DNA from: Haladaptatus sp. DJG-WS-42
GTDB taxonomy: Archaea > Halobacteriota > Halobacteria > Halobacteriales > Halococcaceae
Direction of reading: 5' to 3'
Length of the DNA: 64,000 nucleotides
Assembly (NCBI RefSeq): GCF_037198285.1
Contig: NZ_CP147243.1
Location: 434,001 to 498,000 of the forward strand
In this document: piece by piece, positions 26,704 through 33,080 of the stretch
How positions within the stretch are numbered: position 1 is the stretch's first letter
How the letters are laid out: every line of letters begins with the position of its first letter
Program-made: the position numbers and the translations under genes
Notes under the pieces: model-generated
What the model was told of the DNA's origin: nothing
Seen by the model: the letters and a program-made list of their open reading frames with translations, nothing else
The model's database searches: none

Positions 26704-27741
26704 ATGGACAAAGCGGACATCCTCGACCTCCTGCGACGGGTAGACGACCCTGATCTCGGCGACGATATCGTCTCGCTGAATCTCGTAAACGAGGTCACTA
26801 TCGACGCAGACGACACCGTCCACATCTCACTCGCGCTCGGTGCACCCTACTCTCCGAACGAAACAGAAATCGCCGCTCGTGTACGCGAAATTCTCGCAGC
26901 AGAAGGCATTGAGCCAGAACTCACCGCAGACGTAGACCGTGGTATCACCGCAGAAGAAAGCATCCTCCCGAACGTCAAGAACATCATCGCCGTCGCCTCC
27001 GGCAAAGGCGGCGTCGGGAAATCCACGGTCGCCGTGAACCTTGCCGCTGGCCTCTCCCAGATGGGCGCGCGCGTCGGGCTCTTCGACGCGGACGTGTACG
27101 GCCCGAACGTTCCGCGGATGGTCGGCTCGGACGAACGCCCGAAAGCCACCGCCGAGGAGAAAATCGTCCCACCCGAGAAATTCGGGATGAAGCTGATGAG
27201 CATGGCCTTCCTCACTGGCCAAGACGACCCAGTCATCTGGCGCGGCCCAATGGTCCACAAACTGCTCACCCAACTCTGGGAGGACGTCGAATGGGGCCAC
27301 CTCGACTACATGATTATCGACCTGCCACCCGGCACCGGCGACACCCAACTCACCCTCCTCCAAACCGTCCCCGTCACCGGCGCAGTCATCGTCACGACCC
27401 CACAGGAGGTTGCCCTTGACGACGCCCGAAAAGCTCTCCGGATGTTCGGCAAACACCAAACACCCGTTCTTGGCATTGTCGAAAACATGAGTTCCTTCCG
27501 CTGTCCAGACTGCGGCAACGACCACTCCATTTTCGGCGAAGGCGGCGGCGAGCGCTTCGCAGAGGAAGTCGAGATGCCGTTCCTCGGGAAAATCCCACTC
27601 GACCCGCGCGTCCGCACGGGCGGAGACGAAGGCAAACCCGTCGTGATGGACGAAGACTCAGCGACCGGCGACGCATTCCGTGAGTTCACGGAGAATACTG
27701 CCACGAACGTCGGGGTTCTACTTCGCCGACGGATGCAATAA
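26704..27741 (+). CDS. Mrp/Nbp35-family Fe-S carrier P-loop ATPase
   Basis: The 345-aa protein joins an N-terminal MIP18/DUF59-like domain (residues ~1-85, ILDLLRRVDDPDLGDDIVSL) to a ParA-type ATPase with deviant Walker A ASGKGGVGKSTVAVNLA near residue 98 and the DADVYGPNVPRM motif. FRCPDCGN near residue 265 gives the CxxC that bridges a 4Fe-4S cluster between subunits. Family members carry clusters to apo-proteins. A CCTTATCG element lies 28 nt upstream. A 69-aa protein follows after 2 nt. Confidence 0.93.
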   Translation: MDKADILDLLRRVDDPDLGDDIVSLNLVNEVTIDADDTVHISLALGAPYSPNETEIAARVREILAAEGIEPELTADVDRGITAEESILPNVKNIIAVASGKGGVGKSTVAVNLAAGLSQMGARVGLFDADVYGPNVPRMVGSDERPKATAEEKIVPPEKFGMKLMSMAFLTGQDDPVIWRGPMVHKLLTQLWEDVEWGHLDYMIIDLPPGTGDTQLTLLQTVPVTGAVIVTTPQEVALDDARKALRMFGKHQTPVLGIVENMSSFRCPDCGNDHSIFGEGGGERFAEEVEMPFLGKIPLDPRVRTGGDEGKPVVMDEDSATGDAFREFTENTATNVGVLLRRRMQ

Positions 27742-27743
27742 CC

Positions 27744-27953
27744 ATGGTCGAACCGGACACCGAGCGGATGGACACGCTCCGCGAAATCGCAGACGAGGTG
27801 CGCGACGGGTCGGACGAAGCCGACAAGATTTCGGCGCTCCTGTACCGCGTAAGCGACCTCTACGACCCAGCCGAGGAGACCACACCACAGGACATCTACC
27901 TCAACATGAAGTTCATCCTGCAAGTGGTCGAACGTGGCACGTTAGAACGCTAG
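27744..27953 (+). CDS. Small acidic conserved-looking protein next to Mrp
   Basis: This 69-aa protein is predicted to be all helical: RMDTLREIADEVRDG, DEADKISALLYRVSDLYDP and DIYLNMKFILQVVERGTLER. No cysteine and no membrane segment. I do not recognise a named family. Starting 2 nt after the mrp stop, it is almost certainly co-translated and may be an accessory to the Fe-S carrier; that is inference. Its last 4 nt overlap the convergent gene. Confidence 0.7.
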   Translation: MVEPDTERMDTLREIADEVRDGSDEADKISALLYRVSDLYDPAEETTPQDIYLNMKFILQVVERGTLER

Positions 27954-28891
27954 AGCCAGCGTTTTAGCAACGCGAATCCGACGAGCAGTGCGCCACCAAA
28001 ATACGCCAGTGGAACGTCGTAGAACGACTGCCCACCACTCACCTGCATCGCCAAACTCTGCTGGCCTGATTCATTTTCGTAGGTGTACGGGTCCGACGCC
28101 CATGGTGGCATCCCAGGCTCGTACGATTCGTTCCACATGCTGGTGTTCTTCCCGGCTTGCCCGACAAAGCCAACCTGGTCGTACGCGGTGGACTCATCAG
28201 ACATGTTCTCGTCATAGAGGCGGGCTTCGCCTTTAATGACAGAGCCGCGTTCGTCGAGGAGTTCTACTTTGATTGTTTTGTTGCCGTAGGGGCCGGGAGA
28301 TGCGAGGTAGAAGCTCCCCTCTGTTCCAGTGGTGTGAACCAGTAAGCTCGCACCATAGAGTTGATTTCCAGGATTCTCTATGGTCACATAGGCAACTGAC
28401 GAGGGTTCTCCATCGACCGTTCCATTTGCAATTCGAACGTTCGTGATCTGTGGAGAGGGTATTTCAGGCGAATTGGCCGCATCAATGGGATAGGTTACAT
28501 AGAAATTTGTCGAATTTTCGAATGTTGCGAACGTGATTTCATGTTCGTTTTTTTGAACGTTGAATCCCTGGGTGATGTTCCATGAGTGAGACCAAGTTTC
28601 GCCTGGTGCGATTTCAAATGAAGATTTGTTAAATATTCGCTCATCTACCTCAACGAGAGCACCTGTAGAGACTGTCCGACTAGTGGGGTTATATGCAGTT
28701 GTTGATACTATTCGAGTTGATTGATTAAACGAAACCTCAAATCGAATTCCTTCGAACGAAGTTATCACTCTAACGTCATCGTTTGAATCGCCTCCATTCA
28801 TGGCTGTAATTAGTGGGGAAGATCCACTTACAGCAGCCACTGGCGCTGCACAAAGCGCCAAAGTAGCGACGACAATAGCAAGTCGTTTCAT
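27950..28891 (-). CDS. Secreted, C-terminally anchored protein of unknown function
   Basis: This 313-aa protein has a Sec signal (RLAIVVATLALCAAPVAAVS) and one C-terminal membrane helix (about 291-310, ending LLKRWL), so most of it should face outside. The middle is beta-rich with at least a dozen N-x-S/T sequons (for example FNKSS, WNITQ, ENSTN), compatible with N-glycosylation. It is AT-richer than its neighbours. It lies 56 nt downstream of the 1120-aa PKD protein on the same strand, and the pair probably works together at the cell surface. No known family recognised. Confidence 0.75.
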   Translation of the reverse strand: MKRLAIVVATLALCAAPVAAVSGSSPLITAMNGGDSNDDVRVITSFEGIRFEVSFNQSTRIVSTTAYNPTSRTVSTGALVEVDERIFNKSSFEIAPGETWSHSWNITQGFNVQKNEHEITFATFENSTNFYVTYPIDAANSPEIPSPQITNVRIANGTVDGEPSSVAYVTIENPGNQLYGASLLVHTTGTEGSFYLASPGPYGNKTIKVELLDERGSVIKGEARLYDENMSDESTAYDQVGFVGQAGKNTSMWNESYEPGMPPWASDPYTYENESGQQSLAMQVSGGQSFYDVPLAYFGGALLVGFALLKRWL

Positions 28892-28947
28892 TAATAGAGA
28901 ATATTATCTTACTATTACTTATTTAATTAACGTTCTAAATTCAAATA

Positions 28948-31900
28948 TTATACACAATGACGGACTGCCCCTGATTGTGTATTACAATTTCCTGTCGAAC
29001 CACCATTCGACAACGAATCGATGATTTCTTGTTTCGATTTTGCGCCAGAAGCACGATAGGTTTGCGTCGAATCTTGTGAAACCACTCTCGTTTTCTCGCC
29101 AGTTTTTGAGCTACGATATTCGACAACGTGGTCATTCGTGACCGTGGCAGTGGTCTCGATGACATTTGCTTCGTCGCCGTAGTGGTCGTACCACGCATCC
29201 GTAACACCGATCTGTTTTGTCATTACCCACTCAGTCGTGGGTTCAGTGTCGCCGATGCGATACTCACTAGAGAGCTTTGAGAGTGACTTTGCAGTGGCTG
29301 GATTCGTAGTTGTTTTGTAATGTTGCCATTCGTACTGCGCCGATTGTGAGAGAACGGTACGCTCGGCGATATACGACGTTGTCGTCTCCTGATGTTGCTC
29401 TTCGTATCGATACTCGTACTGCGTTTCGTAGTCTGCAGAGTCGATTTTCTCTTTCCGAGTGTCCCCCGTGAAATCGTCTCCCCACGAACGCTTACTTGTC
29501 GCCCAGTAGGTTTCTGTTTCTTCGTCGGTGTAGGTGTAGCGCTCGCGGGACGGAAGACAAATCCCATAACCGATACAGCGCGATGTGGTTCGGTACCCGG
29601 TGCGTTCAACGGTGTATTCGTGCTCGTACTCTTTGAGGAGTCTGTAGTCTGCGTCGTCCACTTTGACCTGCCGTGTATTACCAGTAAATTCGCCACGGCC
29701 GCTTTGACTATCTCGCCACTCCGTTTCAACGGTCGTCCAGCGCTCGATATGGCTCGAAGTTCCTGCAGTACTCCAACTTGGATTTGACCGAAGGAACACG
29801 TCTCGGTATCGACGAGTCCCGAACGATTCCGTCTGCGTCGTGTATTGTGCGTCTTGAATTTTCTCCAGATGCTCAATCGTGTACTCGGTTCCCGTGTTCG
29901 ACTCTCGTGTGACCGTATACCCATCAGCGAGACGGGCATCACGAGAACTTTCTGAGAGTGCCGTCACTTGCCGAATCCGTGGCTTCTGGACGTGATACGA
30001 GACGTTTGAGACAGAGATATTGGTGGGGTAGATTCGTGATATGTAGAGGGTATTTACCTCGGGAATTTCCGCCGTTGAGTGAGCACGTTCTGGGTTTGCT
30101 TCATTGTAAATTACAACCTCTGTCTGTTCCCCATTTGTTAGCTCAGACGCTGGTATTTCGATTATCGCAGTTCGCCACTCCGAACGTAGCTCATCCGTAT
30201 CGTACGTTCCATTTTCAGCGGCTTTCTGTGGGTCGTAGACCTTTCGATTCCATGAGACAATGGTTTCGTCGGCTCCAACTACGTCAACCCCGAGTGAAAC
30301 ATTGTACGTACTCTTGGTGAATTTGAACGGTGCAGACTTAACTCTAAATCTAACCGTCTCGTTGGCGAAGTATGGTCCGGTCGAAATTTCTTCTATTTCA
30401 CCTACGTTCGGTGCAAAGTAATCGTGGAAATTGTATGAGCGAGACTCGGTATTATCTAACCGGTCAATTACTGTGATCTTCGCAAGTTCGAAAGAATCAA
30501 ACTTGGCTGTAGAGTTATCCGCTGTGATTGGGACTGCGCCTTGAGACCAGGTATAGCGCAATTTTGATCCGTCAGGGTCGAACGAATTGCTTGCATCAAC
30601 GACGATACCCCAATCAGGCTTATAGAAGCCAGTACCGTCATAGATTACTTCAATACGGAGTTCCGGGTCGCTTGGAGTGATTTCAAGTATATTCGAAGTA
30701 GACCCGCTGAAAATTTCTGAGTTTGAACTGCGCGTAGACACAGACCATGTTTGCTTTATCTCAAACGTTCCAGGAACATTGGCAGCCCAATAAGAATGAA
30801 TTGTAAGGACGTCAGTTTGTGGATTATAGTCGCGAATACGGCGATAATCACTTTGTTGTAATTCAAACTTTTCCGAATTTTCATAGTGGCCACTAGACAC
30901 ATCGAAATCATCCGGGTCGACGCCGTTCAAGTCCACCTCCAACACATGATGTGCTGCGTAGCGACTGGCATTGATTCGGGTATGGTACGAATCGACTGGT
31001 GTATTCACAAACTCGCTACTGAGAACAACCGGTTTGCCGACTGGTGTGACGACTTGGGAAGTAGTCGAAACCTGCCCCTTCGAATCCACAGCTCTGACGG
31101 TAATGGTTTGATTCTGTTGTGTTGTTACACGCTCGCTGAATCGAAGATCGAGCTGCGCTCCACTATTTGGATTGGCCAGTCTGGTTGCTTGCATCGAGGT
31201 TGAATCTATTTGTGTGCCATCTACGGACACTGACACAGACTCGAGGTTTCCGTATGCGTCCGACCCGGAGGCAAGCCCAGTAATCGACCCGAACCATTGC
31301 AGCTGTGAGAGTGTGACGTTTGGCTGTGGGTCAGCAACAACGCGGGTTGTTGAATCGTCGAATCGAGCGATGTTCTCAGAGCCATCGGTGTACGTGACGA
31401 TTGCGAAAAGCGAGTGGTCACCCGGAGTCCACGTCAGGTTCTGTGTTGTGCCAGTGGCGGTGACAGTACCGTCTTTGTACCAGGACACGCGGTCGACCGC
31501 GTTTGCAGTGCCGGTCAGCGTGATCGAATAGGAACCACGGAGTGGGCGCGCACCAAGAACGGTCTGCGGGCCAGAAATCGTGGGAGTGCGACCAGACGCG
31601 AGAGACCGTGGCGGTGTGTTGGCTTCATCCGACGGAGACTTGCCATCAGTGGTGTTTCCACCGCCCGACGAGGGTACGGAGGTTGCCTGAATCGCCCATG
31701 TATCAGAGGCGGTCAACCCATCGTGGTCGTATACGGTCGCACGAACGGTGTGTGAACCAATCGTTCCAAAGGTTGTAGACAGCGTATTCGTTGGCTGTCC
31801 AGCAGAGAGTGAACGATTCGTAACAACTCGGCCGTCGACCGTCCATACAATATGAGAAAGTGGGGCACCTCCCCGCGAGATGGTTGCATTGGTTGTGGCA

Positions 31901-32310
31901 GCAGTTCCGGCTTCGATAGTCTGCACACCAGCGAGTGTCACGTCTGGTGGATTTCCTGTTTCGACGGTGATATAGAGCGTATCAGTCCGCTTCGCGCCCG
32001 CATCGTCGGTGACGGTGACTGAGACAGTGTATTCGCCAGTTTGGGTGGGGCGAAATTCAGTGCGCGCGCACGAGCGACAGCGCGGAGCGAGGAGTGTCCC
32101 ATTCGGAGCGTAGATTTCCCAGTCGTAGGCAGTAAGTTGCCCGTCTGGGTCGCGTGAGCCGGTCGCGTCGAGTTGGACAACAGTGCCACGCGAAACAGTC
32201 TGATCGAGACCTGCATCTGCGAGTGGCGCTTCGTTCGTCGGTGACAGAGCGACCACCGGTGAAATGAGCGACAAGACGACCACGATAGCGAGAGCGACTG
32301 AGCGTATCAT
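28948..32310 (-). CDS. Large secreted PKD-domain protein with Tyr/Thr-rich repeats
   Basis: This 1120-aa protein has a Sec signal (residues 1-22) and a clear PKD domain at ~28-115 (ADAGLDQTV, LDATGSRDPDGQLTAYDW). More Ig/PKD-like modules follow to about 700, including SFDPDGSKLRYTWSQG near residue 585. The C-terminal third holds four spaced copies of K-[IV]-x-x-A-x-Y (ends at Y823, Y889, Y961, Y1041) in Tyr/Thr/Glu-rich sequence; two carry F-T-G-x-T-R. Close Cys pairs occur at 78/81, 912/918 and 1109/1119. There is no C-terminal membrane helix or sorting motif. Probably a surface or adhesion protein; function unknown. Confidence 0.8.
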   Translation of the reverse strand: MIRSVALAIVVVLSLISPVVALSPTNEAPLADAGLDQTVSRGTVVQLDATGSRDPDGQLTAYDWEIYAPNGTLLAPRCRSCARTEFRPTQTGEYTVSVTVTDDAGAKRTDTLYITVETGNPPDVTLAGVQTIEAGTAATTNATISRGGAPLSHIVWTVDGRVVTNRSLSAGQPTNTLSTTFGTIGSHTVRATVYDHDGLTASDTWAIQATSVPSSGGGNTTDGKSPSDEANTPPRSLASGRTPTISGPQTVLGARPLRGSYSITLTGTANAVDRVSWYKDGTVTATGTTQNLTWTPGDHSLFAIVTYTDGSENIARFDDSTTRVVADPQPNVTLSQLQWFGSITGLASGSDAYGNLESVSVSVDGTQIDSTSMQATRLANPNSGAQLDLRFSERVTTQQNQTITVRAVDSKGQVSTTSQVVTPVGKPVVLSSEFVNTPVDSYHTRINASRYAAHHVLEVDLNGVDPDDFDVSSGHYENSEKFELQQSDYRRIRDYNPQTDVLTIHSYWAANVPGTFEIKQTWSVSTRSSNSEIFSGSTSNILEITPSDPELRIEVIYDGTGFYKPDWGIVVDASNSFDPDGSKLRYTWSQGAVPITADNSTAKFDSFELAKITVIDRLDNTESRSYNFHDYFAPNVGEIEEISTGPYFANETVRFRVKSAPFKFTKSTYNVSLGVDVVGADETIVSWNRKVYDPQKAAENGTYDTDELRSEWRTAIIEIPASELTNGEQTEVVIYNEANPERAHSTAEIPEVNTLYISRIYPTNISVSNVSYHVQKPRIRQVTALSESSRDARLADGYTVTRESNTGTEYTIEHLEKIQDAQYTTQTESFGTRRYRDVFLRSNPSWSTAGTSSHIERWTTVETEWRDSQSGRGEFTGNTRQVKVDDADYRLLKEYEHEYTVERTGYRTTSRCIGYGICLPSRERYTYTDEETETYWATSKRSWGDDFTGDTRKEKIDSADYETQYEYRYEEQHQETTTSYIAERTVLSQSAQYEWQHYKTTTNPATAKSLSKLSSEYRIGDTEPTTEWVMTKQIGVTDAWYDHYGDEANVIETTATVTNDHVVEYRSSKTGEKTRVVSQDSTQTYRASGAKSKQEIIDSLSNGGSTGNCNTQSGAVRHCV

Positions 32311-32342
32311 ATCGGAATTGTCAGAAATTACAAACGCTATAG

Positions 32343-32350
32343 TTTATAAA
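32343..32350 (-). promoter_or_regulatory. TATA box of the PKD-protein gene
   Basis: TTTATAAA (minus strand) in an AT-rich gap, 33-40 nt before the ATG at 32310. The gap 32311-32494 also must hold the promoter of the small plus-strand gene at 32495; CATTTTTA near 32463 is the candidate. Confidence 0.5.
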
Positions 32351-32494
32351 ATTTAACATTCGCGTATTATTTAATTTACAGTGTTTAGACCAATTCTTGG
32401 GAGAGTTATCGAAGAGAGAAATGTACGTCGGAAAATCGGACACTGCGCAAGGATATTCCGCTCATTTTTACCCACCCGCCCCTACCGATGAGGT

Positions 32495-32747: not shown

Positions 32748-33080
32748 ATGAGCACAGAGACGCAAGCGACAGAAGACGACGTGCGAGAACGCATCCGGTT
32801 GTTCATGATGCGAAACTTCCCGCAGATTCAGATGCACGGTGGGAGTGCAGCGATTCAGGACTTAGACCTCGAGAACGGTGAGGTCTCTATCTCTCTGGGT
32901 GGGGCGTGCAGCGGTTGTGGCATCTCTCCGATGACGGTGCAGGCGCTCAAACACCGCCTCGTCGCTGAGATTCCAGAAATCAACGCGGTCCACGCCTACA
33001 CCGGGATGGACAGCGCGCCGAGCATGCCGTCCTTTTCTGGACAGGATGATGACGAGAACCGCCCACAAGCACCCTTCTAA
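32748..33080 (+). CDS. NifU-like (Nfu) Fe-S scaffold protein
   Basis: This 110-aa protein is a stand-alone NifU C-terminal domain: LFMMRNFPQIQMHGGSAAIQ near residue 20 and the cluster-binding GACSGCGISPMTVQAL (CxxC) near residue 52. Such proteins assemble or pass 4Fe-4S clusters as dimers. The Gln/Asp-rich C-terminal tail is extra. Together with mrp 5 kb upstream and an IscA protein at 52.2 kb, the window carries several Fe-S delivery factors, though they are not one operon. Confidence 0.9.
   Translation: MSTETQATEDDVRERIRLFMMRNFPQIQMHGGSAAIQDLDLENGEVSISLGGACSGCGISPMTVQALKHRLVAEIPEINAVHAYTGMDSAPSMPSFSGQDDDENRPQAPF

Follow-up and report, generated by a model that had tools for sequence, protein, structure and literature searches.

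The two genes described here lie next to each other on the minus strand of a 64-kb window, by which we mean the whole stretch of Haladaptatus sp. DJG-WS-42 DNA that was analyzed (64,000 nucleotides). The upstream gene encodes a large secreted protein and the downstream gene a smaller, membrane-anchored partner (Table 1). Both open reading frames were found where an earlier note on this DNA had placed them, and as that note had also said, genes for Fe-S proteins stand on both sides: on one flank an Mrp/NUBPL-type carrier, after which comes a short gene that shares a few bases with the end of the small gene, and on the other flank a NifU-like protein. The genome to which the window belongs contains one copy of the pair.

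Table 1. Features of the gene pair and its flanks, in window coordinates.
Feature	Position	Strand	Basis or remark
Large secreted protein, 1120 aa (upstream gene of the pair)	28948..32310	-	ORF and homologues
Signal peptide, residues 1-26	32233..32310	-	Hydropathy
First PKD domain, residues 26-116	31963..32235	-	PKD_4, E=1e-14
String of PKD/Ig-like domains, residues 26 to about 730	30121..32235	-	AlphaFold2 strands, Foldseek multi-Ig matches, self-similar profiles
Orphan C-terminal beta domain, residues 740-1092 (~350 residues)	29035..30093	-	Very long strands
Long beta-hairpin, residues 888-937	29500..29649	-	Length-quantised across the family
Hairpin tip, cysteines 912 and 918	29557..29577	-	Kept in 33/39 sequences
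C-terminal tail with cysteines 1109 and 1119	28948..28986	-	Kept in 32/39 sequences
Intergenic gap, 56 nt, AT-rich	28892..28947	-	
Small membrane-anchored partner, 313 aa	27950..28891	-	ORF and homologues
Signal peptide of the small protein	28820..28891	-	Hydropathy
First Ig-like domain, residues 39-133	28493..28777	-	AlphaFold2, pLDDT mostly over 90
Second Ig-like domain, residues 148-254	28130..28450	-	AlphaFold2, Foldseek
C-terminal transmembrane anchor and basic tail, residues 293-313	27953..28015	-	
Segment absent in two same-genus genomes	27955..32455	.	
Mrp/NUBPL-type Fe-S carrier (flank)	26704-27741		
69-aa gene after the Mrp/NUBPL carrier	27744-27953		
NifU-like Fe-S protein (other flank)	32748-33080		

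We searched 392 Halobacteriales genomes with sequence profiles, using residues 425-1100 as the query for the large protein. Only strong matches were counted as carriers; the other matches represent weak PKD or Ig similarity. The large protein was found in 66 genomes and the small protein in 65, all of which are among the 66, and in the sole exception (G032) the contig ends inside the large gene. The two proteins thus co-occur, as the reading in the earlier note required, and that they form a true pair is well supported. Named carriers include Halorussus, Haladaptatus, Halegenticoccus, Halomicrococcus, Halobium, Haloprofundus, Halomarina, Halorubellus, Haloparvum and Halobacterium bonnevillei. 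In a phylum-wide sample the C-terminal domain of the large protein was present in 12 of 393 genomes, all Halobacteriales; one weak match outside this order contained two stops and was taken as chance. Near a contig end in genome G260 there is a second homologue of the small protein (L179:6026-6736), so this genome may carry the pair twice.

Gene order and strand are identical wherever both genes could be read, and the genes are neighbors that often overlap, which indicates that they form an operon. The intergenic distance ranges from -43 to +56 nt in the 35 loci in which both ends could be measured on the longest ORFs, and the gap in the window is the largest of these. On this sequence evidence, a single operon appears likelier than the separate promoters that had been proposed for each gene, although the window's strain may have an additional promoter in front of the small gene.

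The two ORFs have a GC content of 51.7% and 49.3%, compared to 61.4% in the remainder of the window, and it is inside the cassette that GC content, taken in 1-kb windows, reaches its minimum for the 64 kb, in agreement with the earlier description of it as AT-richer than its surroundings. The third codon position is likewise low in GC. In all 19 named relatives examined, the cassette lies 8-16 GC points under its flanks, and because AT-richness was seen in every one of them we regard it as a trait of the pair rather than the mark of a recent import. A foreign island as the cause of the AT-richness was rejected: the pair is AT-rich at its own locus in each of these relatives, the gene trees track taxonomy, and the Mrp-MoaA neighborhood is common to several genera. 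Among IMG/VR contigs and phage and plasmid records, a search for a viral or plasmid origin returned only PKD similarity.

Among 20 loci compared, one of them the window, the pair adjoins the Mrp gene and MoaA at 13 and KorAB at 14. At loci L095-L113, the pair is located between KorAB and the Mrp-MoaA-ribosomal/rpoD genes, in an order that is stable over many genera. In genome G035, the position next to KorAB, which elsewhere is often taken by the pair, is occupied by a PKD protein related at its N-terminus only (L175:5355-7465). In a tree of the large protein, taxonomic families form single clades, except for one family that requires two changes; the small-protein tree agrees less well with taxonomy. 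Pairwise distances in the tree of one protein correlate with those in the tree of the other (r=0.84), as would be expected for any two vertically inherited neighbors. Since the trees follow taxonomy, we read the pair as old and, as far as can be judged from sequence, mainly vertically inherited, with many losses.

The window's own genus includes two genomes from which exactly the 4.5 kb at 27955-32455 is missing; unrelated AT-rich DNA of 608 and 549 bp, with short ORFs, stands there instead. The flanks in these genomes are 88-95% and about 76-91% identical to those of the window. The pair is therefore dispensable and not essential. The short AT-rich ORFs at this site (L120:8296-8823 and L121:7790-8339) differ between the two genomes, and one of them encodes a 175-aa multi-helix protein without a Pfam match. 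The site beside Mrp seems to be one at which insertions vary.

The earlier note had described both proteins as exported and beta-rich, with an anchor on the small one only, and these points were borne out. Each protein has an N-terminal hydrophobic signal, AlphaFold2 models of both are rich in strands, and a C-terminal hydrophobic segment was found in 63 of 64 relatives of the small protein but in none of 66 relatives of the large one. The PKD domains that it had seen in the large protein are also real: the first one matches PKD_4 with 54.8 bits, above the curated cut-off of 27, a PKD match was obtained for 39 of 39 relatives, and C78 and C81 of this domain are kept in 33 of 39 sequences. The AlphaFold2 model of the large protein is only moderately confident (mean pLDDT 77, with a low pTM of 0.35) and was used for secondary structure and not for packing, and whole-model Foldseek matches were generic multi-Ig chains. 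The orphan domain at its C-terminus contains predicted strands of 20-31 residues. This region gave no Pfam family above cut-off across 39 members and no sequence relative in the PDB, and the whole protein had no PHROG match. Two far-apart segments of this domain, residues 813-830 and 980-995, co-vary in length among the family members (r 0.98), a possible sign of strand pairing over long range.

Within the orphan domain, a segment flanked by two conserved anchors has a C-x(4-5)-C motif at its center and comes in discrete lengths. Its left and right arms measure 40/35 (n=38), 24/19 (n=10), 38/33 (n=7) or 26/21 (n=2) residues, such that the left arm is exactly 5 residues longer than the right in all 57 sequences that have the tip cysteine pair. 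On a tree built without the hairpin columns, these arm-length classes change at least five times. Thr/Ser residues alternate along both arms (left, 41% vs 7%; right, 64% vs 13%), and pairing the tip cysteines sets a register in which the Thr-bearing faces of both arms fall together; cross-strand charge pairing in the hairpin was tested and showed no enrichment. A long antiparallel hairpin with a disulfide at its tip, as predicted from these regularities, explains both the arm and the Thr patterns. It is a rare case in which a shape can be read from sequence alone, because both arms change length together. The cysteine pair is missing from nine sequences: in four of them the segment is 59 residues long with a turn-like center, and in the other five most of it is lost, and so the hairpin is not needed for the core role of the protein.

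The model of the small protein is confident (pLDDT 84) and shows a flexible linker between the two Ig-like domains and the C-terminal helix. Foldseek matched these domains to tandem transglutaminase-type barrels, which we take, from the model, as fold similarity only. The protein contains 10 sequons where 3.4 are expected from composition, an approximately threefold enrichment that is seen in most of 38 relatives, and positions 273, 131, 229 and 254 are kept in 29-36 of the 38. The earlier note had listed sequons as a feature shared by both proteins; this holds for the small one, whereas the large one, with 14 against 10.7 expected, is near expectation.

We propose that the pair constitutes a two-component surface complex, in which the small protein anchors a large rod equipped with a spike for contact or adhesion; we would give this reading about an even chance. 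Both proteins would leave the cell via a Sec-type signal. Its C-terminal helix would keep the small protein in the membrane, and the two, probably N-glycosylated, Ig-like domains would be displayed from there. The large protein, having no anchor of its own, would be retained at the cell by binding to the small one, an idea that fits the family-wide anatomy of the two proteins. Its PKD/Ig beads would form a long rod, and the Thr-faced, disulfide-tipped hairpin of the orphan domain could act as an adjustable spike. The spike would presumably point outward, with rod and spike touching something outside the cell. A role in adhesion or cell-cell contact is plausible, while we found no specific support for mating or a pseudopilus, which had been suggested as well. 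If the spike is a contact device, its reach may depend on the length of its arms. A more elaborate version, in which the Thr-faced hairpins of several copies join into a shared beta-structure that forms a tube or spike through the S-layer from a membrane-held base, its length stepped by the matched arms, is a long shot.

An alternative is that the pair is an envelope scaffold that would strengthen the S-layer and membrane or set their spacing through the hairpin, without binding other cells. The conserved sequons and short anchored stalk of the small protein would suit this role, as would the long strands and stepwise hairpin lengths of the large one, but only a minority of genomes carry the pair, it is absent in close relatives, and neither PGF-CTERM nor an S-layer family was matched, which makes a scaffold unlikely. 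We think it quite improbable that the pair is a substrate-binding or receptor complex, with the large protein capturing a polymer or ligand and the small one presenting it at the membrane. Solved relatives of the PKD domain do belong to collagenases and cellulose-binding proteins, and the Ig-like domains of the small protein resemble enzyme accessory domains; however, PKD is a generic extracellular fold, and the common neighbors include no gene for a transporter, secreted enzyme or binding protein. That the large protein is instead a secreted antagonist of rival cells and the small membrane protein gives the producer immunity, an arrangement known from polymorphic toxin systems, is likewise improbable, since the order of a large upstream and a small downstream membrane gene, the patchy presence (66 of 392 genomes) and the presence or absence among same-genus genomes are outweighed by a C-terminal region that is conserved family-wide rather than swapped, a single fixed downstream partner, taxonomic families that form single clades, and the lack of any toxin-domain match.

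As a surface complex for contact, the pair would be of interest because few proteins for haloarchaeal recognition or adhesion are known and the process is poorly understood. It is a compact, clearly bounded and strictly paired candidate that could be removed as a unit. Carrier genera that can be cultured include Halorussus, Haladaptatus, Halobacterium and Haloprofundus, among others, and same-genus genomes with and without the pair exist in nature. Our literature searches returned no paper on the pair.

Several known systems were compared to the pair. No enzyme family was matched in Pfam, NCBIfam, PHROGs or PADLOC; the earlier note had named such a match as one that would refute its candidate surface system. 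Sequence profile searches gave no family match to archaeal fusexins. With regard to a type IV pilin-like fibre, which would have a prepilin-type signal peptide and N-terminal helix, Pfam gave no pilin match and, by hydropathy, the signal looks like a plain Sec type. Polymorphic toxins have an exchangeable C-terminal toxin domain; the 39 members examined here have one conserved domain, with no Pfam match above cut-off. Haloarchaeal S-layer glycoproteins, as generally known and as described in part in PMC8640222, resemble the small protein in being exported, with sequons, Ig-like domains and one C-terminal anchor. The pair differs from them in that it is not universal, has its anchor and rod on two genes, and is without PGF-CTERM: PG[FWY] occurs within the last 60 residues of 0 of 66 large and 1 of 64 small proteins, and no PGF-CTERM (archaeosortase) family match was found. 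Its absence in most of the 392 genomes argues against a general S-layer lattice role.

CARDB and transglutaminase C-terminal type Ig domains match the fold of the two tandem barrels of the small protein, but with about 10% identity, a low TM-score over the whole chain and no Pfam match; Pfam CARDB did not match any of 38 small-protein members at E 0.1. Secreted PKD-repeat proteins of Haloarchaea and Methanosarcinales (pfam18911 type) have N-terminal PKD domains like the large protein, and several from haloarchaea share its residues 2-230, but these relatives are without the C-terminal orphan domain and have no small-partner match nearby. Haloarchaeal secreted proteins of 480-940 aa at L173, L174, L176, L177 and L178 have their ~230 N-terminal residues in common with the large protein and differ in their C-terminal parts, again with no match to the small partner in their vicinity.

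In the VARTIG modules of Thermococcales, for which the paper describing them reports no close counterpart outside that order, the operon opens with a large secreted Ig protein, and genes for smaller membrane proteins, part of them Ig-bearing, come after it (PMC8416519). They are characterized by a hypervariable, recombining C-terminus and by changing downstream genes in islands (PMC8416519), whereas the haloarchaeal pair has a conserved C-terminus, a fixed partner (65 of 66 genomes) and mainly vertical descent. Although the pair does not have the variability that defines them, VARTIG modules are the nearest described system, and the two are built on a similar plan.
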